Program-made: the position numbers and the translations under genes | In this document: piece by piece, positions 4,016-60,927 of the stretch | Numbering within the stretch: the first letter of the stretch is position 1 | How the letters are laid out: every line of letters begins with the position of its first letter | The notes under the pieces: generated by a model | Database searches by the model: none | Seen by the model: the letters and a program-made list of their open reading frames with translations, nothing else | Told to the model about the DNA's origin: nothing | Origin: Sphingomonadales bacterium | GTDB lineage: Bacteria > Pseudomonadota > Alphaproteobacteria > Sphingomonadales > Sphingomonadaceae | Length of the DNA: 64,000 bases | Direction of reading: 5' to 3' | Assembly: GCA_006226685.1 (NCBI GenBank) | Contig: SBGG01000029.1 | Span: forward strand, 1-64,000

Positions 4016-4436
4016 GCATTCCTCGATCCATTCCCACGCGGAAGCTGGTTTCACGCTGATCGAGGCGCTGGTCATTTTGGCGGTGCTCGGCCTCGCCGCA
4101 GGAATCTCGTTCCCCACCGTTGGCGCAGCCCTACGCTACCAGGCATTCATGGATGGCGCGACGCGCTTCGAGGCGTCGTTACGCAGCGCCCGGATGCAAG
4201 CATTGCGCCGGGGCATCATTGTTCGATTTGAGGTGTCTTCCGACCAGCGCGGCTTTGGCATCGGCGAGGCGAGGGACCTCCTCCCGGACCGGCTACGCGC
4301 CATTCCGCGTGCCGGGGGGATCACCTTCTATCCCGATGGCACCGCCACGGCCGGCGAAGTGGCGGTCGAAGACGGTGTCAGGACGCGGCGCTGGCGTGTT
4401 CGCCCGACAACCGGCCTGATTGAGCGCATATCATGA
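3999..4436 (+). CDS. gspH: Minor pseudopilin GspH
   Basis: Minor pseudopilin of the type II secretion system. It has a prepilin site G/FTLIEAL, a hydrophobic helix and a GspH-like C-terminal domain (TFYPDGTATAG region). The frame stays open upstream to 3933, but ATG 3999 has a purine-rich ribosome site (GGGGGAGG) just before it and gives 145 residues. It overlaps the gspG end by 17 bases. Its stop overlaps the gspI start. Confidence 0.88.
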   Translation: MWGAGEHSSIHSHAEAGFTLIEALVILAVLGLAAGISFPTVGAALRYQAFMDGATRFEASLRSARMQALRRGIIVRFEVSSDQRGFGIGEARDLLPDRLRAIPRAGGITFYPDGTATAGEVAVEDGVRTRRWRVRPTTGLIERIS

Positions 4437-4807
4437 GCGGCAGGAATGCAGAGGCAGGCTTCAGCCTGATCGAGGTATTGGTGGCACTCGCCGTCATCGC
4501 CGGCATGTCCTCGATGTTGTTCGACTCGATTTCGACTCACGCCCAAGCCGCGAGCCGGACCGCACAAAAGCGCGAGGCGGTTCTGCTCGCGCGTTCGCTG
4601 CTTGCCCAGGCCAGTATCGCACCCGGACCCGGCGAACTGGCAGCTACCGGTCATTGGCGCGATCTCTCATGGCGTTTCACGCGACATGGCGTCGGAGGCG
4701 GCGCCCGCGATACCGCAGTAGCCCTCCAAAGGGTTCGGATCGATGTCCTGGATCGCGGGACAGGGCGCAGACTCGTTCGCGTCGAGACGCTGCGGTTGGA
4801 TCAGTGA
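4433..4807 (+). CDS. gspI: Minor pseudopilin GspI
   Basis: Small minor pseudopilin, 124 residues, with the peptidase site G/FSLIEVLVAL and one N-terminal hydrophobic helix. In studied systems GspI nucleates the pseudopilus tip with GspJ and GspK. Its position between gspH and gspJ and its length support the assignment. It is translationally coupled to gspH through an ATGA overlap. Confidence 0.9.
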   Translation: MSGRNAEAGFSLIEVLVALAVIAGMSSMLFDSISTHAQAASRTAQKREAVLLARSLLAQASIAPGPGELAATGHWRDLSWRFTRHGVGGGARDTAVALQRVRIDVLDRGTGRRLVRVETLRLDQ

Positions 4808-12837: not shown

Positions 12838-13164
12838 AGTCAATCAACCCTAGTGCAACACGCCTCCTCAAAGAAGTCCGCGTCTATTCGAGATTTTGTG
12901 ATTCGATTTTCTGTAGATGTATTTATAATATACATTGCCATTTGCGGCAATTTATATAGTAATAGTTACAAAAAATGCAGTTTATTTTGAATCTGTCATC
13001 TAATTGAAAGAGTGAATTGCGATATGTCTCGACCACTATTTCATGGAATCGTGATGTAATCGACGACAGAATGATGAAATTTGTAGAATCCTGGCATAAA
13101 ATTATCTCCATTATGGCTGCTTGCGGTGGCCCATTCCGTCATGACTGATCCTGGGAGCAGAAAA
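12838..13164. promoter_or_regulatory. A+T-rich divergent promoter region
   Basis: This gap separates the minus-strand hydrolase from the plus-strand hypothetical gene and is strikingly A+T-rich between about 12890 and 13110. It contains an inverted repeat ATTGCC-ATTTGC-GGCAAT (12934-12951) in a run of TATA-like sequence. It probably holds both divergent promoters. No gene is visible. Confidence 0.45.
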
Positions 13165-13773
13165 ATGATCTTCAAGTTGGGCGCGATCGCGGCGGTGTCG
13201 GCTCTCGGGCTGTCCCTATACGCATTTCAGTCGGCACCTGATGCCCGACCCGTTGAAGCGCAGGGCGCTGCATCGGCGGGAACCGCCTCCCAAGGTGCCA
13301 AGATAATCCCGGCGCGTTTGCTCGACTGCACGCTCGGACGGATTTCGAATTTCGACACACAGCGAGAGCAGGATCCATCGGAATATACCTATTCCAGCCG
13401 CCACAAGTTCAGCCTTTTCCTGCCCGAAACGCCGGTTCGCACCACACCGCCGCCTGAGGCGACCGAGCGGCCAGAACCGGTTAATCCTCAGACCAGGATC
13501 GTCGCCGATCCTGACGGAATCGCGCGTGATGCAGAGGCTCACGCCTTTGATCGTGTCGTCGATTTCTGGCCGCAGCGTGTCGAAATGACCAAGCCCATCA
13601 GCAATATCGCGGTGAAGCTGGTCATCATCGATGGCGTCGATCCAAGCCAGTCCTCGGCGACCATGTTTCTGACGAGCGCCAACGACGCGGTCACCTTCGA
13701 TCTCAAGAATCTCTATTATGGTCGTTGCAGCGTCAAACTCGGGAAACAGGCGCTGGTCCCTCAGGCATCATAG
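13165..13773 (+). CDS. Hypothetical exported or membrane-anchored protein
   Basis: I do not recognise this family. The frame opens at 13126, but ATG 13165 follows GGGAG (13153-13157) and gives 202 residues with an N-terminal hydrophobic segment (MIFKLGAIAAVSALGLSLYA). An Ala-rich and then Pro/Glu-rich linker (TTPPPEATERPEP) precedes a C-terminal globular part containing one of two cysteines. It is likely periplasmic. It stands alone, divergent from the SleB-type hydrolase. Confidence 0.6.
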   Translation: MIFKLGAIAAVSALGLSLYAFQSAPDARPVEAQGAASAGTASQGAKIIPARLLDCTLGRISNFDTQREQDPSEYTYSSRHKFSLFLPETPVRTTPPPEATERPEPVNPQTRIVADPDGIARDAEAHAFDRVVDFWPQRVEMTKPISNIAVKLVIIDGVDPSQSSATMFLTSANDAVTFDLKNLYYGRCSVKLGKQALVPQAS

Positions 13774-14227
13774 ATTTGAAGCCCGATCAGCTTTGCTAAC
13801 CATGCATCTGATACACCTTGCTCTAAGCAGGGCGTGTCCGATGCATCGGCGCTCAGTTACATCTGGGCATGCCGGGAGTATCACGGGGGCGAGGCCATGT
13901 CCGCTTTTCAACAATCACTGAGGATTGCGGATTTTTTCATCCCTCATCGTGCACCATTGTCGAAACCGTTGCGCGATTCCCCTAGAAGCGGCGATTCCAG
14001 CGGGTTGGCGGGAGTGCGTCGCAACCTGCTAAAATATCAGGATAATTATAAAATCCGATTCTAAGATTGCCAGTTCGCCGCGCTGAAGTGTCTCTAAATT
14101 AGAAGCATGTGCGGAATGAAGCCTCCAAAGGTCTGCGCCCGCCGGATTTGACGAAGAAGTCGGGTTTGACCGACCGCGCGGGCCTGTACTGGAGAGCGGC
14201 CGCCCATTGCATCTAAAGGAGATGACG
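13774..14227. other. Intergenic region before the AraC pair
   Basis: No convincing gene. The small frames here have no recognisable protein features. A purine-rich ribosome site AAAGGAGA (14215-14222) at the right end serves the next gene. Confidence 0.4.
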
Positions 14228-14683
14228 ATGGACGAGATAGGCATCGACCTCGATGCGCTTTCGGCTTCCAATGTCGCGGCGGCGATCCCCAGCAGCGCCG
14301 CGCGTCTCGCGCCTTGGCAGGTCAAACTTGCCAAGAAGGGCATGGCGCGGCAGCTCGCTACCGGATTGCGCATCGCCGACATTGCGGCGAACCTCGATAT
14401 TTCCGTGACGCATTTTTCCAAGGGCTTCCGGAACTCCGTCGGCATCGCGCCCTATCGTTGGTTCATGAACGCCAGGCTTGCTCATGCCCTCCATCTACTT
14501 GCCGAAACCCGCACCTCTATGGCGGAGATTGCGACCGCGTGCGGCTATTCCTGCCAAAGCCATTTCACCACGTCCTTTTCGAACGCTATGGGGACAACAC
14601 CGACACAGTGGCGCCGCCGGCGTCGCGAAAACGCCACTGGGCCGCTCATCGGCGTGCCGATCCTTACCATCCCGGAGATGTAA
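14228..14683 (+). CDS. Short AraC-family regulator (HTH domain only)
   Basis: Transcription regulator of 151 residues made almost entirely of an AraC-type double helix-turn-helix (about residues 35-135): IADIAANLDISVTHFSKGF for the first HTH and MAEIATACGYSCQSHFTTSF for the second. No ligand-binding domain is present. ATG 14228 follows AAAGGAGA by a normal distance; earlier in-frame ATGs (14207, 14222) are less well placed. It is a tandem paralogue of the interrupted regulator downstream. Targets are unknown. Confidence 0.85.
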   Translation: MDEIGIDLDALSASNVAAAIPSSAARLAPWQVKLAKKGMARQLATGLRIADIAANLDISVTHFSKGFRNSVGIAPYRWFMNARLAHALHLLAETRTSMAEIATACGYSCQSHFTTSFSNAMGTTPTQWRRRRRENATGPLIGVPILTIPEM

Positions 14684-15109
14684 GCAACCTGAGGCCCACT
14701 TCAGTCGAATGGCCCGCCATGGGCGCTATTCCAGATCATACCTGCAAGGTGACAGCGCAAGGTGGTTGGCAATGATCCGGGCGGTGACCTGGGGTGTCCG
14801 CTGCTGCCGCGGCACCCGCAACAGCGGAATGGATAGTGCCAGGCGTCATCAATCAGTCAGTTTACCGACCCTGCGCGCGGCAAATATTCACGCCGTCGGA
14901 TCGTTATGTGCATCGGATCCTTCAGACGATCGCAAAGCCGAAATTCGCTTTGCCAAGTTTGGCCCTTCAACGTGTCTATTGAATAGAGGCCGGCGCACGG
15001 GTTGCGCGGAATCGCCGTGACGGTTGCTGCTGGCAAGGAGGGGATATCGCGCTCCGGGCGCTGATCGAGTTGCCGAATTCCCGTCCATCCTTTTTCACAG
15101 GAGATGCTG
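14684..15109. other. Spacer between the two AraC genes
   Basis: About 425 bases with no convincing gene on either strand. The right end carries AGGAG (15099-15103), the ribosome site of the second AraC gene. Confidence 0.4.
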
Positions 15110-15496
15110 ATGGTCCATGGCGCTTTGCCGACAGGCGATAGAGATTTGACCGACAATGCTGATTGCCAACCAGCGGCTCCGGCATCGAGCCATGCGGTTC
15201 AAAGCCGTCGAAGCCACAAGGGGATGAAGCTAGCTCCCTGGCAGCTGAAACGGGCGCAGGAACTGATGTTTGAACAGGTGGCCAGTGTTCTTGAGGTTGC
15301 GCAAATCGCTCAGGGGTTGGGAATGTCGACAGCGTATTTTACGAAGGCATTCAAGAATACTGTCGGTATTCCTCCCTATGGCTGGCATCTGCGCCAGCGT
15401 ATCACCCGCTCTGCCTCCCTTCTGCATGATCAAAAGCTGACGTTGGCACAGATCGCCACCGAATGCGGCTTCTCCGATCAAAGTCATTACACGAAG

Positions 15497-15504
15497 GCAT
15501 TCCG
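15497..15504 (+). repeat. Left target-site duplication of the IS66 element
   Basis: GCATTCCG directly abuts the element's GTAAGCGA end and is repeated exactly at 18016-18023. Eight bases is the known duplication length of IS66-family elements. Confidence 0.95.
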
Positions 15505-15517
15505 GTAAGCGATGTTC

Positions 15518-17089
15518 TCAGAGCACGGCTGTCCAGGGCATGAGCTCGGATAGGCGGTTAGCCGGGTGACCCTTAGCTAGAGCGACGAGAGTTCGGGTCA
15601 GCCATTCGTGCGGGTTGATGCCGGACAGCTTGCAGTTTTCGATGAGCGTGGCGATTACCGCCCAGTTGTCGCCGCCTTCGTCTGAACCGGCGAAGAGGGC
15701 GTTCTTGCGATTTAGGGCAAGAGGCCTAATCGACCGCTCGACGATGTTCGTGTCGAGATCGACGCGGCCGTCGTCGAGGAAGCGAGAGAGCCCGTCCCAG
15801 CGGCTTAGTGCATAGCGGATCGCATCGGCCAGTTTGCTCTTGGCGCTCACCTGCCGGAGCCGCGCTTCCAGATAGAGCTTCAGATCATCCACCGCCACAC
15901 GGCTATGTTCAGCACGCATGGCGCGGCGCTGCTCGGCCGACGTGCCCCGGACCTCATCCTCGACGGCATAGAGCATGGCGATGCGACGCAGAACTTCGGT
16001 CGCAACCGGCGATTTAGCCGCGAGCTCAAAGAATTTACGCCGGACGTGCGACCAACAGAAAGCGAGGCGGACCTGCTGGCGGCGCTTGGCAAGCGCCGTA
16101 TACCCGCCATAGCCATCCACCTGCAGGATGCCTGCGAAGTCTCCGAGATGGGCGTCGGGCCGTTCGGCCTTGCGGTCAGGGGCGTAGACGTAGGCGACCA
16201 TCGGCGGATCGCTGCCACCCCATGGTCGATCATCGCGGGCATAGGCCCAGATCTGGCCGGTCTTGGTGCGCCCACGTCCGGGTTCTAGCACCGGCGCCGT
16301 CGTCTCGTCGGCAAAGAGGCGCTGCGATCTTCGTAGTTCTTCGAGCGTGCAATCCCGCAGGGGTCTCAGGTACCAGGCTGCTCGGCCGACCCAGTCCGCC
16401 AAGGTGGAACGGTCGAGCTTGATGTCTTGGCGGGCGTAGATCTGCGCCTGCCGGTACAGAGGAACATGGTCGGCGTACTTCGATACCAGAACCTGAGCTA
16501 TCAGCGCCTCAGTCGGAATGCCGCCCTCGACTATCCTGGCCGGTGCCGGCGCCTGGACGACCGCCCCTTCGCAAGAACGGCAGCCGTAGCGTGGACGACG
16601 CGTCACAAGGACGCGGAATGTGGTTGGCACGACGTCGAGGCGTTCGGAGACGTCCTCGCCGATCACATGCAGCGCGCCGCCACAGCAGGGGCAGGCCTTG
16701 TCCTCTACATCGACCACCTGCTCGATCCGCTCGAGGTGGACGGGAAGCGAGCCGCGGTTGGTCTTGCGCGACTCATGGCTTTGAGCGAGCTGCGAGACCG
16801 CATCGCGGATCGCGCGTGCTTGACCTAGCGCCGTCTCGACATCCTCCAGGCCAAGCTGGAGCTGGTCAGGATCGAGCTGCTCGGAACGGGGGCCGAACCG
16901 GTGGCGCATGAAGGCGTCGATAATCGCCTGTAGCCGCTCGATCTCGGCATCGGCCTCACCTTTGGCAAGGGTCAGCTCAGCGACCTGGGCCTCCTTGGCG
17001 ACCTGCACCTCGGCAAGCATCCGGGACTGCTCGAGGACCAACGCACGTAGCGTGGCAACGTCCTCGGGTAGGTCCGCTTCGGTGAGCAT
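15518..17089 (-). CDS. tnpC: IS66-family transposase TnpC
   Basis: The main transposase of the element, 523 residues. It has an N-terminal coiled-coil region (about 20-60), a leucine/arginine-rich linker with FGPRSEQ typical of IS66, a zinc-finger-like CPCCGG...YGCRSCEG region, and the DDE catalytic domain including LFADETTAPVL and VDGYGGY, ending in the NIVERSIRPLALNRKN signature. It ends just inside the left terminus of the IS. Confidence 0.96.
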   Translation of the reverse strand: MLTEADLPEDVATLRALVLEQSRMLAEVQVAKEAQVAELTLAKGEADAEIERLQAIIDAFMRHRFGPRSEQLDPDQLQLGLEDVETALGQARAIRDAVSQLAQSHESRKTNRGSLPVHLERIEQVVDVEDKACPCCGGALHVIGEDVSERLDVVPTTFRVLVTRRPRYGCRSCEGAVVQAPAPARIVEGGIPTEALIAQVLVSKYADHVPLYRQAQIYARQDIKLDRSTLADWVGRAAWYLRPLRDCTLEELRRSQRLFADETTAPVLEPGRGRTKTGQIWAYARDDRPWGGSDPPMVAYVYAPDRKAERPDAHLGDFAGILQVDGYGGYTALAKRRQQVRLAFCWSHVRRKFFELAAKSPVATEVLRRIAMLYAVEDEVRGTSAEQRRAMRAEHSRVAVDDLKLYLEARLRQVSAKSKLADAIRYALSRWDGLSRFLDDGRVDLDTNIVERSIRPLALNRKNALFAGSDEGGDNWAVIATLIENCKLSGINPHEWLTRTLVALAKGHPANRLSELMPWTAVL

Positions 17090-17120
17090 GAAGGCAGTGA
17101 ATCAGTACGCGAGAGCCCCG

Positions 17121-17477
17121 TCAACCGGCAATCTGCGGCGCCTGTGGCCGGCGCCCACCATGTACGCGGCGCCAGTCCAAACCTTCCAGCAAAGCGCCGA
17201 GTTGGGCCGCCGTCACACGCATCACGCCGTCCTGTATCCCAGGCCAACGAAAGCCGCCCTGCTCGAGCTTCTTCGCCATCAGGCACAGACCAGTGCCGTC
17301 CCACCAGATCAGCTTGATCCGGTCGCTTCGCTTCGCCCGGAAGACGTAGATGACCCCGGAAAAGGGATCGCCGCCGTACTCGGCTCCGACGAGTGCAGCC
17401 AGAGCATCCGGCCCTTTGCGAAAATCCACTGGCCGCGTTGCGATCATGACGCGCGCGCCAACACCAGGTCCGATCAT
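17121..17477 (-). CDS. tnpB: IS66 accessory protein TnpB
   Basis: IS66 Orf2 protein of 118 residues, with the family hallmarks RPVDFRKGPDALAALV, YVFRAKRSDRIKLIWWDG and LEQGGFRWP. Its role is needed for transposition in studied IS66 elements but is biochemically unclear. It overlaps the end of tnpA by four bases and lies 31 bases before tnpC. Confidence 0.96.
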   Translation of the reverse strand: MIGPGVGARVMIATRPVDFRKGPDALAALVGAEYGGDPFSGVIYVFRAKRSDRIKLIWWDGTGLCLMAKKLEQGGFRWPGIQDGVMRVTAAQLGALLEGLDWRRVHGGRRPQAPQIAG

Positions 17478-17929
17478 CGCGTAGCCTTGAGCGCTTCGAT
17501 CACTGCGGCGATCAGCCCTTTATCGGTACCGCGGGCAATCCTCACCGCTACACCATCTATCTCCAGCTCCACCGCGCTCGAAGGCGATCGGCGCTGACGC
17601 CGCGGACGCTTGGCAACGGCAGGCACCTCGCTTGGCGGCGACGGTTCTATCACAGCGGGAACGAAGAGAGATGCGGGCGCCGGGGCAACAGGAAGCGCGA
17701 AACCTTGGGCTTCCATCTGCTTGCGCAGTTCGCGGCGCCAGGTGAAAAGCTGCGAGGGGATCATGCCGTGCCGCCGAGCAACGGCGCTGACGGACTCTTG
17801 GCCGGAATAGCTCTCCGCGACGATCGAGACCTTGACCTCGGGTGGCCAGTCCCGACGCTTCCCCGCGCCGGTGAAGACCTCGAACCGCTGAACCTCGCTA
17901 GTGCCAGCATCGTCACATGACATCGTCAT
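17474..17929 (-). CDS. tnpA: IS66 accessory protein TnpA
   Basis: First gene of the element, 151 residues. The N-terminal helix-turn-helix (RRDWPPEVKVSIVAESY through VSAVARRHGMIPSQLFTWRR) is of the transposase_8/IS66 OrfA type. A Pro-rich linker leads to a C-terminal part with LEIDGVAVRIARG. The promoter is probably between here and the right end of the IS. Confidence 0.93.
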   Translation of the reverse strand: MTMSCDDAGTSEVQRFEVFTGAGKRRDWPPEVKVSIVAESYSGQESVSAVARRHGMIPSQLFTWRRELRKQMEAQGFALPVAPAPASLFVPAVIEPSPPSEVPAVAKRPRRQRRSPSSAVELEIDGVAVRIARGTDKGLIAAVIEALKATR

Positions 17930-18015
17930 AGCACTAACGACCTCCGCCTGATCAAAGGCGGTGAAACTCGGCCATGCGCCTCACGCCCGCAAGGTGGGGC
18001 TCAGGCTTCGCTTAC

Positions 18016-18023
18016 GCATTCCG
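18016..18023 (+). repeat. Right target-site duplication of the IS66 element
   Basis: GCATTCCG, identical to 15497-15504, follows the terminal CGCTTAC of the element. The AraC reading frame resumes at 18024. Confidence 0.95.
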
Positions 18024-18120
18024 GCGCCTGATTGGCATTACGCCGGGGAGGTGGCGCAGAAAACTCAGAGCCGGAGCGCTTCGTATCGAGGAAATGATCA
18101 AACTGAACTAGCTGGAAGGT

Positions 18121-18672
18121 TCAATGGGGCTTTTGCCTGCCATGCTCGCCGGAACGCCCTCTCGCCGTAATATCCGGTTGTTGGCCGAGCGTCCGGTCAA
18201 TGGCCAGTTGCAGATGGGCGGTCGCCTCGTCATCATGGACACTGTCGAGCAGGCCGAGAGCCTCGATCATCAAGGCGATGGCCTGCTGGCGGGTTTGGGC
18301 GGACATCTCCGATTGCGGGTCGCGCTGAAGGCGCTGCTTTTTCCGATCGAGATTCTTTATATCCGTGTCGAGTTCGCGCAGGCGGCGCTCCACGATCAGA
18401 TCGATCGCCATCGGCGAAAGACCGGCCCCGACGATGGTGTCTTTTGTTCCCGGCGCTCCTGTCGCTTCCGCGCGATCAACGCAGATATGCCCATCATTGA
18501 CCAGCAAGGTCAGCGCGCGTTCGAGATGGGGCATTGCGATCGACGTTCCCGCGCGCACCTCCCGCAGGAGCAGGATCGCGTCGTTTACGGACTCAGCGGC
18601 AACCGCACAGAGGAATTCGTCGTTTTCCTCATTGTCTTCGGCCGGGGGCCCAGATTCAGGCGACTTCTCCAT
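18121..18672 (-). CDS. Hypothetical helical protein
   Basis: No family recognised. About 183 residues from ATG 18672, which follows AGGA by six bases; TTG 18678 is an alternative. The protein is acidic at the start and rich in Leu, Glu, Arg and Gln in the middle (LIVERRLRELDTDIKNLDRK), suggesting a coiled coil, with a basic tail. No signal peptide or membrane span. It lies tail to tail with the broken AraC gene, 9 bases apart. The opposite strand is also open across this stretch, but that product looks less protein-like. Confidence 0.55.
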   Translation of the reverse strand: MEKSPESGPPAEDNEENDEFLCAVAAESVNDAILLLREVRAGTSIAMPHLERALTLLVNDGHICVDRAEATGAPGTKDTIVGAGLSPMAIDLIVERRLRELDTDIKNLDRKKQRLQRDPQSEMSAQTRQQAIALMIEALGLLDSVHDDEATAHLQLAIDRTLGQQPDITARGRSGEHGRQKPH

Positions 18673-53746: not shown

Positions 53747-54211
53747 GTGGATAATTACTCTAATCACACTTTCGCAACTCTCGATGCTTTACGAGCATCG
53801 CGCAAGCATGTGTCCGATTGGCTCTGGCGTCCGTGGTACGCCAAGCTCTGGTGGGCGGCAATCCCGGCATGGTGGGCGGGCATGGCTGTATCGACGAAGG
53901 TCACGCTACTGACCGCTTTCTACGACAGCGCATTGGCGGGTTTCCTGAATGTCCTGTTCTCCCCGCTGACCGCGCTGATGGTGTTGGGCGTGGGATATGT
54001 GCGGCATCTGCTAGCTAGACCTTCAGTCGCAGGGGTTAGGGGTTCCCTTTCTGACGATGCTTCATCGAATATCGCCGATTTTTGGGAGGAGCATGACCGG
54101 GCATTTGAGGATCTCAATGCATCGACTGACATTCACGACCCACGATCGGGTGCGCTTTACATCGGCAATCCGATAAGTCCCAACAACGGGGCTCGCATTA
54201 ACGTTTTTTGA
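53747..54211 (+). CDS. Hypothetical membrane protein
   Basis: A 154-residue protein from GTG 53747, nine bases after AGGA in GGAGG; the frame extends to 53636 without a good start. Two hydrophobic segments (LWWAAIPAWWAGMAVSTKV and LNVLFSPLTALMVLGVGYV) precede a hydrophilic C-terminal half. No family recognised. It lies tail to tail with traG and overlaps its end by 14 bases. Confidence 0.55.
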   Translation: MDNYSNHTFATLDALRASRKHVSDWLWRPWYAKLWWAAIPAWWAGMAVSTKVTLLTAFYDSALAGFLNVLFSPLTALMVLGVGYVRHLLARPSVAGVRGSLSDDASSNIADFWEEHDRAFEDLNASTDIHDPRSGALYIGNPISPNNGARINVF

Positions 54212-57200
54212 AGCTGCTATCGCCATCACCGAGGCTCCCATCGACATCAGTCGAAAATCTGCCATTCTTCAAAACGGAGTTTTGTTCGATTGAAGTGAAG
54301 GGGCCGGTGATGTCAAAGGTAGCACGGCCTGCATCCGCATCGTGCAAATAGCGATTGCGCATACCCGTCGGCCCCAGAATCCGTTCCGACAATTCGCGAG
54401 AGAAGGCTTCTTCTGGACGACTGGAGCGAGCAGCGGCGCGCTCAGCTGCGGCTATAGCGTTGCGAACATCGTGATTGACGATATCCAAAGACGATTGCGC
54501 ATTCTCGGTCGAGATTCCGACGTCTCGGCTCGTGAATCCGACATTTGCACCGACACGACCGCTGGTGGTGTGCGCCTGCTGAACTGTCGGTCCCTGGGAT
54601 CCTTTCTGCCCCTTTTGAGGCCCTTTGCCTCTACCGCCAGTCGTTTCCGCTTCGGTTTCCGAATTGGAAATGCCGCCACCCAGTTCAAGCCCGACATTCG
54701 TTCCCATCGTCACCTGATCCTGCGCGGATCGTGTCAGGCCCCGCTGCCAACCGGTTTGCCCAATGATCGACTGCACATCCCGCGTGAGCGTATCGGCCAC
54801 CTGGGGTTTGAGGCGCCAGTTGCCGTGACGATCCATCTCGAACCCACCCTGCAGCCAGTTCTGCATCATCGCCCGGCCTTGCTCGCCGCCACCCAGGAAA
54901 TGTTCGATCGTGTCGGGGCCGGCTTGCTTGCCAGCCTCGAAGCGCGTGCTGGTGTCGTTACGGGCCGACTGCTGAAACCCGACCGAACTCGACACCAGCA
55001 CATCGTTGTCGGCAAAGCTGAACCGGGCGCGTCCACCATTGGCGACCGCGCCGAGCTGACTTTCGTTGATGAGGCCGCCACGCCACATCTGCGCCGCTGT
55101 CTCCGGCGTCAGGTTGAGGCTGAGGTCGCCATTCTGTGCCATGGCGATCTCGCGCTTCGACATATCTACGCCATGATCGCGCAGCAGGTTTTGCATACGC
55201 GTCAGTCGTTCATTGTCCACGATCCGGGTGAGCCGTTCGTTACGTGCGCGGTCGGCGATCCCCGCCGCGCCGCCCTCGGCCATGTCGGTCTGGTTGCCGA
55301 CGCCCTGGCTCAAAGTGCGAATGAAGCTGTCGAGCCGCGCCGCCTGCCGCACCGACATGCCCGCAGCGGCCGCGCCCTCGGCATAGCCAGCATTGTCAGC
55401 TTGCCGCCGCTGCTCGCCGATCCGGGCGGCTGAACGCGTGCCGTCGTGGCCGACCTCTCGTTGTGCATCGAGCTTTCCTGATCGCTCGGCGAAGTCGTAC
55501 CCCGCCGCTTCACGCGTGCGTCCATAGACACTCGTGCCCTCGCGCGCGGCCTCCGCCGTCGCGCCATCGGCGGTGCCCACCTGCACGGCCGCATTATATG
55601 TTTCCAGTGCGCGCAGTACTTGCGCTTCATTTCTGCCAGTTGCGCGGGAGAGTTGGGAAATGGCGGAGGAGCGGGCTTCGCCTGAGAGGGCGTTGATAAA
55701 GGCGATGCGGCGGGAGGTTTCCTGAACGGGGAGACCAAGCATCGATGCAGCGTTGCGCTGCCCCTCATTGCTTCCTGTCCGGTGAGCTTGCTCGGTGGCG
55801 ACGTTCCGCCGCTCGATCGGTGCTACATTGTCGCCTGCGAAGTCCCGCCGCCCTTCCATCGCGCCAACCTGGATTTGTGCCCCTGTGAGGTCGTTGCGCA
55901 GCATCTGTTCCTGCTCATAGGTGTTGGCTATCAGCTTGGCGAAAGTGGGATCGGCTGAAGCCTGGCTGATGACGGTTGAGGCCTTCAGCGCTGCATCCTT
56001 CGCGTCATAACCACCACGCTCGAAATGACGCTGGGCGCCTGAGTGCATCATCTCATAGGCGCGCTGGTCGCCGAAAGCGCGCCACTGGACCATCCTTTGC
56101 GCGAAAGCGGCAAAGGTCCGCTCACCCGATTGTCCCTCACCGAAATAGCCCGTGCCGAGCGCGCGGAGGGCATCTTTTTCAGCGAAATTGTGGATGGCGG
56201 CGGTGGTGGCGTTGTCGCGCACGGCACGAACGGTTGCGGGATCGGAAAGGCTGCGTCCGGTGAGGGCAGGGGAGAGACCGCCCATCTCGCGTGCGGCATC
56301 GAGGCCCCCTAATCCGAATGCCGCCGTTCCGGCCGCACCACCGCCATGTTCACCTATCACCCGACTTGCCGCCCCAAAGGCCCGATTCGCACCGAAATTG
56401 GAGCGTTCCCCAAAATCCCCAAAGCTTGATGTTGCGCTGCGCCGTGCCATCGTACCGGCTGCATTGGCTTGCGCCTCGAGCGCCCCTGCATAACCTTCAC
56501 TCGTCGTGAGTGGCGCGGCGGCCGCGGTGCCCTGGCCCTGGACGCCGAGCGCACCGCTGGTGAACGCGGTGAAGACGTTGCCCGAGAAGCGGAACACCGT
56601 GAACACGAATGCCCCGGCCAACCCTGCGGCGGCCGTACGAAACGATCCGAAGATCGCCAATGCCTTCATCGCCGAGGAGGGGGCCAGCATCCAGGCATTG
56701 GCCGCCACGTTGTTGGCGCGCATCTCGGCCAGCACATCGGTCGCGCGGCCGAGTGTGAGTTGATAGATCCCGGCGTCGATCACGCCCCAGAGCGCTACGA
56801 ACACGAACAGGCCGAGCGCGAAACTGGCGACCCGCAGGTTGATCGGGGTCAGGATGAACAATAGCGCGATTGGCATCATGAACAGCATGATCCCGAACAC
56901 CGTGGCGCGGATCGTCGGCATCCACTCGTTCGCGGTGGACATTGTAGCAAGACCGCTCGACACAACGGCGCGATTGGCCATGACGCGGGCGGCCGTGGCT
57001 GGACTGTCCTCGAACAGAACGTCGCCGATCGTGCCGCCAAGCATCACGTTGGTCAGGAATTGCTGGAGCGAAGCCGGATTGTCCATCATCATCCCACCGA
57101 GCTCGCCAATATTAGCCCGGCATCGCTGAAGCTGAGTAGTGTTGGTGATGTCGTAGCCCGTGCGCGTGCATACCTGCGCGACATAGTTGTCAAAGAGCGC

Positions 57201-57986
57201 TGGCTCCGACAGCCGCGTCGAAATATGGTCCCAGGCCTCATTGCAGCTCACCGTAGTTCCCCCCTTATCGGCGGAGGTGAATACGGTACTGAACGTCGCT
57301 GGACCCGCCATTGCCGCAAAGGCAGAGGGGAGGTCCGTTGTTGTCCTGAAAAGCTGATCGTCGTCGACACCATAGGCGGGCGATACGCGCGCCACCGGAT
57401 AGCATTGCCGCACATAGTCCTTGATCGTTGAATCCAGGAATACATCGGTCATCGGACCACGCGGGCTTGCGGCGTTCAGGAACAGGTCGAAACTATGTCC
57501 GCCCGCACCAAATTCCAGCTTGGCATGGGGATCGGTCGTGTTGTCGTCGATGACCTCGGCCAGCGCGCGTTCCATCATGTTGGTCATGCCAGCGACGAGT
57601 ACAATCAGGTTCGGGACGTCGCCGACAGGTTGGTAGGCATTGCGCACCCGGTCATAGACATGAACCGTGCCCGTGGTGGCGACGAGCCCGACAAAAAGCC
57701 CGACGCCGATCAGCATCTGGAACCCGAAGGCCACGATTCCCATGCCGGAACCTTTGACGCTCGCGAGCAGCGCGCCAAGCGCGATGCCGACCACCGCGAC
57801 GATCAGCACCAGCATCTCATATCTGGGATCGCCGAAGATCATCGAGACAAGACGGAATGCGTCCACTGTCTCGGCAAAGCCATCATAGGTGTGAAAACTC
57901 GTGTCGATCGCCAGCGCGGGTGTCGCCGCGAAAGACATCGTGAACAGGGCGATCAGGACCGATAGGGCGCGGAGAATAGGGTTCAT
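54198..57986 (-). CDS. traG: Conjugal transfer mating-pair stabilisation protein TraG
   Basis: F-type TraG, 1262 residues. In F it acts in pilus assembly and mating-pair stabilisation. A signal-like start (ALSVLIALFTMSFAATPALA) is followed by membrane segments near residues 55-110 and 360-480 (FGIMLFMMPIALLFILTPI, ALGLFVFVALWGVIDAGI) in the TraG-N domain. The long C-terminal part is hydrophilic, Ala/Arg/Gln-rich and helical. It is last in the transfer operon, 14 bases after traH. Confidence 0.9.
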   Translation of the reverse strand: MNPILRALSVLIALFTMSFAATPALAIDTSFHTYDGFAETVDAFRLVSMIFGDPRYEMLVLIVAVVGIALGALLASVKGSGMGIVAFGFQMLIGVGLFVGLVATTGTVHVYDRVRNAYQPVGDVPNLIVLVAGMTNMMERALAEVIDDNTTDPHAKLEFGAGGHSFDLFLNAASPRGPMTDVFLDSTIKDYVRQCYPVARVSPAYGVDDDQLFRTTTDLPSAFAAMAGPATFSTVFTSADKGGTTVSCNEAWDHISTRLSEPALFDNYVAQVCTRTGYDITNTTQLQRCRANIGELGGMMMDNPASLQQFLTNVMLGGTIGDVLFEDSPATAARVMANRAVVSSGLATMSTANEWMPTIRATVFGIMLFMMPIALLFILTPINLRVASFALGLFVFVALWGVIDAGIYQLTLGRATDVLAEMRANNVAANAWMLAPSSAMKALAIFGSFRTAAAGLAGAFVFTVFRFSGNVFTAFTSGALGVQGQGTAAAAPLTTSEGYAGALEAQANAAGTMARRSATSSFGDFGERSNFGANRAFGAASRVIGEHGGGAAGTAAFGLGGLDAAREMGGLSPALTGRSLSDPATVRAVRDNATTAAIHNFAEKDALRALGTGYFGEGQSGERTFAAFAQRMVQWRAFGDQRAYEMMHSGAQRHFERGGYDAKDAALKASTVISQASADPTFAKLIANTYEQEQMLRNDLTGAQIQVGAMEGRRDFAGDNVAPIERRNVATEQAHRTGSNEGQRNAASMLGLPVQETSRRIAFINALSGEARSSAISQLSRATGRNEAQVLRALETYNAAVQVGTADGATAEAAREGTSVYGRTREAAGYDFAERSGKLDAQREVGHDGTRSAARIGEQRRQADNAGYAEGAAAAGMSVRQAARLDSFIRTLSQGVGNQTDMAEGGAAGIADRARNERLTRIVDNERLTRMQNLLRDHGVDMSKREIAMAQNGDLSLNLTPETAAQMWRGGLINESQLGAVANGGRARFSFADNDVLVSSSVGFQQSARNDTSTRFEAGKQAGPDTIEHFLGGGEQGRAMMQNWLQGGFEMDRHGNWRLKPQVADTLTRDVQSIIGQTGWQRGLTRSAQDQVTMGTNVGLELGGGISNSETEAETTGGRGKGPQKGQKGSQGPTVQQAHTTSGRVGANVGFTSRDVGISTENAQSSLDIVNHDVRNAIAAAERAAARSSRPEEAFSRELSERILGPTGMRNRYLHDADAGRATFDITGPFTSIEQNSVLKNGRFSTDVDGSLGDGDSSFKKR

Positions 57987-58000
57987 GGGACAGGTCCCGA

Positions 58001-59425
58001 TCAGCGGTTGCGGTTGGCGGCGGCGCCGGCGGCATCGCGGGCATCGCGGTCGCGCTGGCGAACGACACCGGCATAACTGGCCGAGAGATTGGCCTGGTTG
58101 AGGGCGGCCATGTAGGACTGCCGCATCTGCGCACGTTGGCGCAGCACTTCGTCACGCAGATCGCGCAGTTGCTCGATCCCCTTGGTCAGGATGCGAGTCT
58201 GGCAAACCTTGGCGTTGCCTGCGTCGCTCGCGCCAGCCACACTGACACCGCGTTCGGCGTTCGACACGGCGAAATCGATACTGCGCGTCAAATCGTTGAG
58301 CATCTGATAGGCGAGCGTCAGCGCAACGAGTTCGTCGGTATCGCCGATCACGCTGTCGACGACACCCTGCCGCACGCCCCATTCGAGCAGGCGGTAGATC
58401 GGCAATGTTTTCACGTTGGCGACGAACTGCCGCTCATCGGCCGTAAGCGCGCTGCGGGTGCGGATTTTGGTGGAGATCGAGTCCATCCGTGAGCGGGCGA
58501 GGATCAGCGCGCCTTTGCCGGCCCCATCGACCGAGCAATCGGCGGCCGTGGGCGGGATCGCCAGTGTCCGAGACTGGACCTTACCGGTGAGAAAATCGTC
58601 GACGCTCTCGGTGTCCTGGCGCGGACAGGCGGGGATGGCTGAGAATATGGGCACCTTGTCGGTCGCATCCCAGCGCATATAGACGTCGCCCACACGGGCC
58701 CGCATAACTCCGGCCCAATCGGACGCACCGACGCGCGCCGAAGCATGGGCGAGCAGCGACCCGGTTTTGAAGATCTCGGTGACCTCCGCAGGACAGTTCT
58801 CCAGCGCGTCCTTCAAATCTTCGGTCGGGCTGTTGGCGTTGGCCTGAATCTTCTCGCGGCTGTGCTGATAGCTTTTGGAGAAGCCCTCCTTCACTGACTT
58901 GTAGCCGGTCATTTCCTCAATGATGCCTGACATATTGTCGTCGCCTTTGGCGATCTGCACCATGCGATTGGCGAGGCGGCAATCATTGACCTGAATGCTG
59001 TTCAGGAAATTCGTGGCCGCTTCCATCTTGGAGATGATGTTGCCCATCTTCTCGTCGAGGGTTTCGAGCAGGTACTGGAACGCCACCGCGGGCGCTGCCT
59101 GAAGGATGCTCTCCAGCTTCTGGACGAGGTAATCCGGATCCAGAAACGACATGCCCCCGAGGAACATGTCGATCCCGCCACAACCAGCCTTCACCTTGGG
59201 CAAGGTCACGCTCATCAGATAGTCGTTGTGGACATCGACCCTGCCCGACATGCCGCCCGCCGTCACATAGCCGCGGGTCTGGTCTTCGAAGCTGCCAGGG
59301 CTGGTATAGGTCACATTGTCGAACCAGCTTTCCGCCCAACCTTGGGCATGGGCTGGCGCGGCAAGGCTGCCAAGAGCAACAAATGGCAAGGTGATCAGGC
59401 TCAGACGACGATGCAGGGTGGCCAT
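58001..59425 (-). CDS. traH: Conjugal transfer protein TraH
   Basis: F-type TraH, 474 residues from ATG 59425, eight bases after AAGG. It is exported (LITLPFVALGSLAAPAHAQ) and acts in the periplasm in pilus assembly with TraF, TrbB and TraN-linked factors. Diagnostic stretches are RGYVTAGGMSGRVDVHND, KAGCGGIDMFLGGMSFLDP and CRLANRM. The C-terminal third is helical. Order traF-trbB-traH-traG matches F-like systems. Confidence 0.93.
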   Translation of the reverse strand: MATLHRRLSLITLPFVALGSLAAPAHAQGWAESWFDNVTYTSPGSFEDQTRGYVTAGGMSGRVDVHNDYLMSVTLPKVKAGCGGIDMFLGGMSFLDPDYLVQKLESILQAAPAVAFQYLLETLDEKMGNIISKMEAATNFLNSIQVNDCRLANRMVQIAKGDDNMSGIIEEMTGYKSVKEGFSKSYQHSREKIQANANSPTEDLKDALENCPAEVTEIFKTGSLLAHASARVGASDWAGVMRARVGDVYMRWDATDKVPIFSAIPACPRQDTESVDDFLTGKVQSRTLAIPPTAADCSVDGAGKGALILARSRMDSISTKIRTRSALTADERQFVANVKTLPIYRLLEWGVRQGVVDSVIGDTDELVALTLAYQMLNDLTRSIDFAVSNAERGVSVAGASDAGNAKVCQTRILTKGIEQLRDLRDEVLRQRAQMRQSYMAALNQANLSASYAGVVRQRDRDARDAAGAAANRNR

Positions 59426-59470
59426 GGCGGGCACCTTTCGATGGTTGGAGAAAGGAAGCGGCGCCCCATG

Positions 59471-60055
59471 TCAGTTCCTCTCTCGATTTGAGGATGGGCG
59501 CATGGGCACGCCCACGATCCCGGTGAACTTGGACATGCCGCGCACGCCGACAGCGGGCTTCACGCCCGTCAGCATCTTGGCGGCCAGATAAAGATTGCGC
59601 GCCAGGTTGGGCGCATGGTCGGTGCCGATGGCGATCGGAATGATGCGATTGGGGTCTGCGATTGGCCGTACCCAGGCGACTGGATGGCCGACCCAGGGTA
59701 GGCCGAGCCGACCGGAGCGAACCATCGCCTCTTGCGTTCCAATCGTGCGAACCTGCCAGCGATAGCGATGTCCGAGTGCGCCAAGTCTTGCCCACAGATC
59801 CGCACAGGGAACACAGCCTGGTGCAGTGCTCATTTCTACGACGAAGGCAGGTGCCTGACCTTTGAGTGTTTCGGCAAAATCGGGCGGCCAGTCGCGCGTA
59901 ACCGGAACGCGGGCCAGCCATTCGCGCATCTCGGACTCTGTGGTGACGGGATGGATAGCGGCCCGCATCGCCTGTTCGCGTGTGACCGGTTGCGCTGACG
60001 CCGCCGGGATCAGCACAACCGAGATCAGCAACGCGAAGGTCGCCCGGCCATTCAT
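59471..60055 (-). CDS. Thioredoxin-fold conjugation protein (TrbB-like)
   Basis: A 194-residue exported protein with signal peptide (ATFALLISVVLIPAASAQ). The centre has a thioredoxin-like strand and CxxC motif (FVVEMSTAPGCVPCADLW). In F, TrbB is a periplasmic disulfide isomerase for pilus proteins, and position between traF and traH fits. The C-terminal part with AKMLTGVKPAVGVRGMSKF is unusual for thioredoxins. It begins in an ATGA overlap with traF. Confidence 0.7.
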   Translation of the reverse strand: MNGRATFALLISVVLIPAASAQPVTREQAMRAAIHPVTTESEMREWLARVPVTRDWPPDFAETLKGQAPAFVVEMSTAPGCVPCADLWARLGALGHRYRWQVRTIGTQEAMVRSGRLGLPWVGHPVAWVRPIADPNRIIPIAIGTDHAPNLARNLYLAAKMLTGVKPAVGVRGMSKFTGIVGVPMRPSSNRERN

Positions 60056-60927
60056 CGTTGGGGGTCCATGCTTGCGCCGACCAGATCACCGCCGAGGACG
60101 CGCGGATCGGTCGCGGACACTGGCCCATTGGCAAGCGCGTCGAAGAACCCGTCTTCCTCGCCAGCACCGGTCATGAACTGCTCTGGGCGGATGTCGCCCG
60201 CAAGCAGTCGGACCGCCTGATAGGCCATCTGAATGAGGTTGGGGTACGCCTCAACTCCGCTAGCGATCACCATACGCTGCTGGCTATTTCGCCGAATGAT
60301 CATCGTGGTCGGCGTAACCTCGACACCGAAGCGCTGGGCGAGTTCCGGCTTGCGATCGATGTCCTGCATGGACACCTGCCAGCCCATTTCTTCCTGAAAG
60401 CGCTGAACGATGGGCCACTGGACCCGGCAATAGCCACAGGTCGAGCGTGAGAACATGACCAGCGCGAATTCGTTAGCGCGGGAGCGCAGATATTGACGGC
60501 GCACCTGATCCTTGTGTGCGGAAAGCTGGTCGCGCGCGTCGCCCACCATGGGATTGGCAGACTTGGCGTTGAGTTCCGGGTGCTGGAGCATCGCGATCTG
60601 GGTGACGCCGGCGAAGGCGCGGGCCTTTCGCCTCGCAAAGTCCTGCAAACGCCAGAAATCGGCGACGGCATCGACCGTCAGCACGGTCGCGGCATAGTCC
60701 CGCTGTTGTTCGATCAGCTTGCGAATTTTGGGTGGTGTCCATGTCGCGAGCTCCGCCATTGGCGGGATCGCTGGCTTTACCAGTGCATCGGGATCATCCT
60801 TATCTTCCTCAGGCTTGGCAGGCGCCTGATACCACCAATAGCCGGTGCGTTGATCGGCTGCTGATTGCGCGGTTGCGGGGGTGGTGGACACCAACGCCAT
60901 GGCGAGCAAAAGGCCAGCACGCCTCAC
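60052..60927 (-). CDS. traF: Conjugal pilus assembly protein TraF
   Basis: F-type TraF, 291 residues, exported (GLLLAMALVSTTPATAQ) with a C-terminal thioredoxin fold. The N-terminal half has GYWWYQAP and helical KLIEQQRDYAATVL, typical of TraF. The fold carries a real CGYC motif (FSRSTCGYCRVQWPIVQRF), whereas TraF of the F plasmid itself lacks the cysteines. It probably has redox activity on pilus proteins. Both ends overlap neighbours by four bases. Confidence 0.88.
   Translation of the reverse strand: MRRAGLLLAMALVSTTPATAQSAADQRTGYWWYQAPAKPEEDKDDPDALVKPAIPPMAELATWTPPKIRKLIEQQRDYAATVLTVDAVADFWRLQDFARRKARAFAGVTQIAMLQHPELNAKSANPMVGDARDQLSAHKDQVRRQYLRSRANEFALVMFSRSTCGYCRVQWPIVQRFQEEMGWQVSMQDIDRKPELAQRFGVEVTPTTMIIRRNSQQRMVIASGVEAYPNLIQMAYQAVRLLAGDIRPEQFMTGAGEEDGFFDALANGPVSATDPRVLGGDLVGASMDPQR

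Follow-up and report, generated by a model that had tools for sequence, protein, structure and literature searches.

An IS66-family element has transposed into codon 134 of an AraC-type regulator gene, here called AraC-2, duplicating 8 bp of target, and the interrupted gene can make a protein of at most 134 residues with no foreign tail. The whole account, namely the IS66 insertion, a clean stop, a probable loss of the second HTH, a probably recent event and a likely loss or weakening of the regulator, has in our estimate a probability of about 0.93. It concerns a window of 64,000 nucleotides (the whole stretch of DNA analyzed), located in contig C323 of a 2.14-Mb assembly that is 68% complete in 330 contigs; the orthologues and the IS matches suggest that its source is a sphingomonad. 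Disruption of AraC-2 is an ordinary kind of IS insertion, and it offers a clean, checkable case of a regulator broken beside capsule genes, with intact relatives that can be named. The contig as a whole may be of greater importance than the insertion itself.

The IS66 element and its target duplication

The element occupies 15505..18015 on the reverse strand (2,511 bp), with ends GTAAGCG...CGCTTAC, and was assigned to IS66 from its Pfam families and its target duplication. It is flanked by two identical copies of the 8-bp duplication GCATTCCG, the left at 15497..15504 and the right at 18016..18023; the preliminary description had given the element and its identical flanks exactly to the base. 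Identical 8-bp flanks arose in only 6 of 200,000 random 2,511-bp intervals drawn in the window. The element termini are inverted copies of GTAAGCGA, identical at 8/8 positions and imperfect beyond.

Three genes lie on the reverse strand within the element: tnpC (15518..17089, 523 aa; PF03050, 6.5e-102), encoding a DDE transposase of IS66 type, tnpB (17121..17477, 118 aa; PF05717, 2.2e-35) and tnpA (17474..17929, 151 aa; PF01527, 5.5e-16). TnpC combines the Pfam families DDE_Tnp_IS66, zf-IS66, LZ_Tnp_IS66 and the IS66 C-terminal element, and its candidate DDE motifs lie at 259, 323 and 448. TnpB belongs to TnpB_IS66 and TnpA to the transposase HTH family HTH_Tnp_1. All three genes are open and full length, as had been claimed, and the best alignments of their products to 11 related elements are free of stops, with TnpA aligned over residues 1-151 in nine elements and partially in two, TnpB over its full length or one residue less in all 11, and TnpC nearly end to end in nine and partially in two.

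Excerpts of PMC3281130 and PMC11946415 give 8-bp target duplications and inverted repeats of 20-30 bp for the IS66 family. The window element has the duplication and, by Pfam, TnpC with the accessory TnpA and TnpB. Its terminal repeats agree in part with the family definition of 20-30 bp repeats starting GTAAGCG (PMC11946415, excerpt): GTAAGCG is present at both ends, and the match is exact over 8 bp only, a difference from known IS66 elements. It resembles ISPpa5a and ISPpa7 of Paracoccus and the IS66 copies mobilised in Frankia casuarinae in its IS66 transposase and accessory genes, its 8-bp duplication and its ends starting GTAAGCG. Six of the 11 related elements have GTAAGCG/CGCTTAC ends with a perfect 8-bp duplication and one has 7 of the 8 bp; an exact end-motif search missed the ends of four. 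The element has a single match in its own assembly, a count that must be read knowing that assembly can collapse repeats, and some match in 123 of 397 family genomes. It is probably an unnamed element, because the near-full-length matches among those listed are 71-77% identical in DNA. Nine records of the plasmid collection match it, none with one place covering at least 80% of it.

The AraC-2 5' part (15104..15508, forward strand) comprises 134 codons, or 132 from a second ATG at 15110, and matches the HTH_18 profile over positions 1-67 of 80. Because the IS end contributes an in-frame TAA, AraC-2 stops after those 134 codons; the GTAAGCG end places the TAA directly in frame, so that no foreign residue is added. 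The severed 3' part (18022..18111, forward strand) is still open in the right frame to its own stop and aligns codon by codon with positions 4400-4489 of a Hephaestia caeni locus (L033). A scripted join of the flanks, representing the empty site, gives a single open frame ending at 18111, in agreement with the earlier proposal that removing the element restores the regulator. Judged by title and abstract opening, the papers found on IS66 with AraC do not treat this case.

Uninterrupted relatives and the age of the insertion

A search of relatives for the uninterrupted gene, suggested in the preliminary description, found AraC-2 intact at four related loci, one in Sphingobium arseniciresistens (L032, 81% identical over the AraC-2 5' part), two in H. 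caeni (L033, 81%; L035, 70%) and one in Sphingobium sp. AS12 (L034, 68%). All four orthologues read through the insertion site into residues resembling those encoded after 18023. The contrary result, that the sequence beyond 18023 never belonged to an AraC gene and is open only by chance, was sought and not found; the similar residues carried through the site at the four loci refute it, and we give it practically no weight.

These four were accepted from 26 AraC-type loci compared; the other 22 encode AraC-type proteins 26-43% identical and were set aside as non-orthologues. Wider searches with AraC-2 returned only more distant proteins. Among 114 same-genus genomes 58 had a match (the window's own included), the best outside the own genome being other AraC proteins at 44% identity; at E 1e-25, 10 of 397 family genomes had one (own included), and everything besides AraC-2 itself was at most 45% identical. 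In the plasmid collection, an AraC-2 orthologue used as query matched 392 records, all at less than 60% identity. We found no empty site in another genome of this species, and the ancestral state is therefore read from relatives with at most 81% protein identity.

The H. caeni and Sphingobium clusters have the same near-neighbor order as the window (hydrolase, 215-aa protein, AraC-1, AraC-2, convergent gene) and, where the stretch covers it, an ABC transporter and glycosyltransferases further along, as in the window. Unlike the window, they have no IS66 element at the site, and TnpA, TnpB and TnpC found no match in the three stretches of relatives that span it. The conserved 215-aa protein upstream of the AraC pair (13126-13773) is present at the four related loci and belongs to no Pfam family. 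The same is true of the family assignment of the convergent gene (18121..18672, reverse strand, 183 aa), which is conserved in the same place in L032 and around L033, L034 and L035. Among 114 genomes of the window's genus it occurs only in the window's own, and it has no match in the plasmid collection. With the IS in place, this gene points into the element's right end and shares its orientation with the tnp genes; a layout of this kind would not be expected to have polar effects on the capsule genes.

Between AraC-1 and AraC-2, two of the related loci carry a RES toxin/Xre-type antitoxin pair (L035:2739-3640, L034:2582-3537), which is absent from the open reading frames listed there in the window, L032 and L033. 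It seems that the regulator pair is a spot where insertions occur.

The preliminary description had called the insertion a recent event. That fits the data, and the insertion is probably recent, because the 3' part beyond the IS remains open, with neither decay nor window-specific residue changes: none is specific to the window and five are specific to L033, with four assigned to neither. By codon position, its differences from L033 number 5/3/14. In the 5' part, five residue changes are window-specific and three L033-specific, with 18 assigned to neither, numbers too small to reveal maintained or relaxed constraint, and the differences by codon position are 18/12/45. Between the window and L033, dN/dS is 0.146 for the AraC-2 5' part (dS 0.76) and 0.361 for AraC-1 (dS 0.49). 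The event is nonetheless undated, as about 30 codons cannot date it, and the nearest uninterrupted relatives (L032 and L033) lie at dS about 0.73-0.76 and so bound its age only loosely.

A population of cells with and without the insertion, of which the assembly shows one state only, would suit a genome 68% complete in 330 contigs that appears to resemble a metagenome bin. We consider such a mixture unlikely, since the assembly holds no second, uninterrupted copy; the AraC-2 query has four matches in its own genome, one of them AraC-2 itself.

Predicted consequences for the regulator pair

The L033 orthologue of AraC-2 has 162 aa, and the cut removes its last 28 residues. Its predicted model (mean pLDDT 77.8, 10 sequences) has helices at 45-57, 65-71, 76-87, 91-106, 114-120, 126-137, 141-150 and 155-158, with pLDDT below 50 over residues 1-37. 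Ending at residue 134, the window protein would on this model lack three residues of helix 126-137 and all of helix 141-150, together with the near-invariant G138, P141, W144 and R145.

The orthologues have the two complete HTH motifs in about 100 residues that mark the AraC/XylS family, whereas the window protein is cut within the second. They resemble the DNA-binding-domain-only form of the family, and their two C-terminal HTH motifs agree with solved domains of the AraC type such as 2k9s. Pfam gave only HTH families in the window AraC proteins, with no N-terminal sensing domain, and the 162-aa orthologue, with its low-confidence N-terminus, differs from other AraC/XylS regulators in having no visible one. 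Such a domain is common in AraC/XylS regulators and not required, being absent from MarA and SoxS.

The shortened protein would end three residues before the second recognition helix does and would also lack the helix that follows, and its second HTH has, on the model, probably lost stable DNA binding. One could instead suppose that the 134-residue protein is functional or a dominant variant, the insertion being neutral or altering regulation rather than abolishing it. The stop falls exactly at the junction with zero added residues, and HTH1 and 9 of the 12 residues of the HTH2 recognition helix are kept. We find it improbable nevertheless, since the four near-invariant residues are lost, the missing helix sits in a block of the L033 model with mean pLDDT 89, and the HTH_18 match breaks off at position 67 of 80. 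For AraC-2 we infer loss of function. Judging by position, one of two regulators beside a capsule/type II secretion gene region would likely be lost or weakened as the net effect. That the insertion acts as an adaptive or reversible switch, by which the clean in-frame stop from the IS66 end turns a regulator of a capsule and secretion region, on a probable conjugative element, into a short form of altered activity, with both states coexisting in the population, seems to us very improbable.

The other regulator, AraC-1 (14222..14683, forward strand, 153 aa), is an intact tandem AraC-type paralogue with orthologues in L032-L035. It begins at an ATG at 14222 or, in the same frame, at 14228, and covers HTH_18 positions 1-80 of 80 when scanned from a TTG at 14207. 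The pair had been put forward as a natural comparison of a lost regulator with an intact one. The paralogue is indeed intact, but the comparison is weaker than claimed: AraC-1 is only 42% identical to the window AraC-2 5' part, the figure against the L033 AraC-2 orthologue is likewise 42%, over 108 residues, and both recognition helices differ. It is for these reasons a weak control for the loss of AraC-2, and not a like-for-like one.

Conjugation, secretion and capsule genes on the contig

F-type conjugation genes (window 54198-60927 and L082, C323:1-14485) lie on the same contig as type II secretion and capsule genes (window 529-47340). The conjugation genes are TraK, TrbI-type, TraV, TraC, TraU, TraG, TraH and TraF, and the secretion genes GspD, GspK and GspE. 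The capsule-type genes encode an ABC ATPase, glycosyltransferases, an export protein, two Capsule_synth proteins, a SIS-CBS protein and a nucleotidyltransferase.

To compare synteny we used 30 window proteins under labels assigned in this analysis. The 80 kb of H. caeni around L033 contain 26 of them, 25 collinear over about 74 kb; identity to the window is 97% for TraH and 96% for TraC, and an FkbM match there is only 28% identical and out of place. The four absent from these 80 kb are TnpA, TnpB, TnpC and one 229-aa protein. The stretches at L035 and L034 each contain 21 of the 30, with the secretion, regulator and most capsule genes in common, and those conjugation proteins that are present reach only 23-32% identity. 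TraG, TraF, TraK and a ManC-like protein were not found in either stretch, FkbM is also missing at L035, and GspE was not found at L034, where it may lie beyond the stretch compared.

The regulator pair thus recurs with type II secretion and capsule genes at two H. caeni loci, in Sphingobium sp. AS12 and partly in S. arseniciresistens, and closely related F-type conjugation genes stand alongside at one H. caeni locus, as in the window. This recurrence suggests a travelling surface-polysaccharide island, and gene content and order point to a conjugative island probably common to sphingomonads. It is possible that the contig is mis-binned rather than a mobile island. Our literature search found nothing on the conjugative region, and titles and abstract openings on Hephaestia with AraC have nothing on this one.

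In S. arseniciresistens the AraC site is on a different contig from the other shared genes, and a search for an overlap of 21-60 bp joining the two contig ends was negative. On the other contig, 16 of the 30 proteins lie within the initial 60 kb, spanning the ABC gene to TraC, with FkbM at 28% identity.
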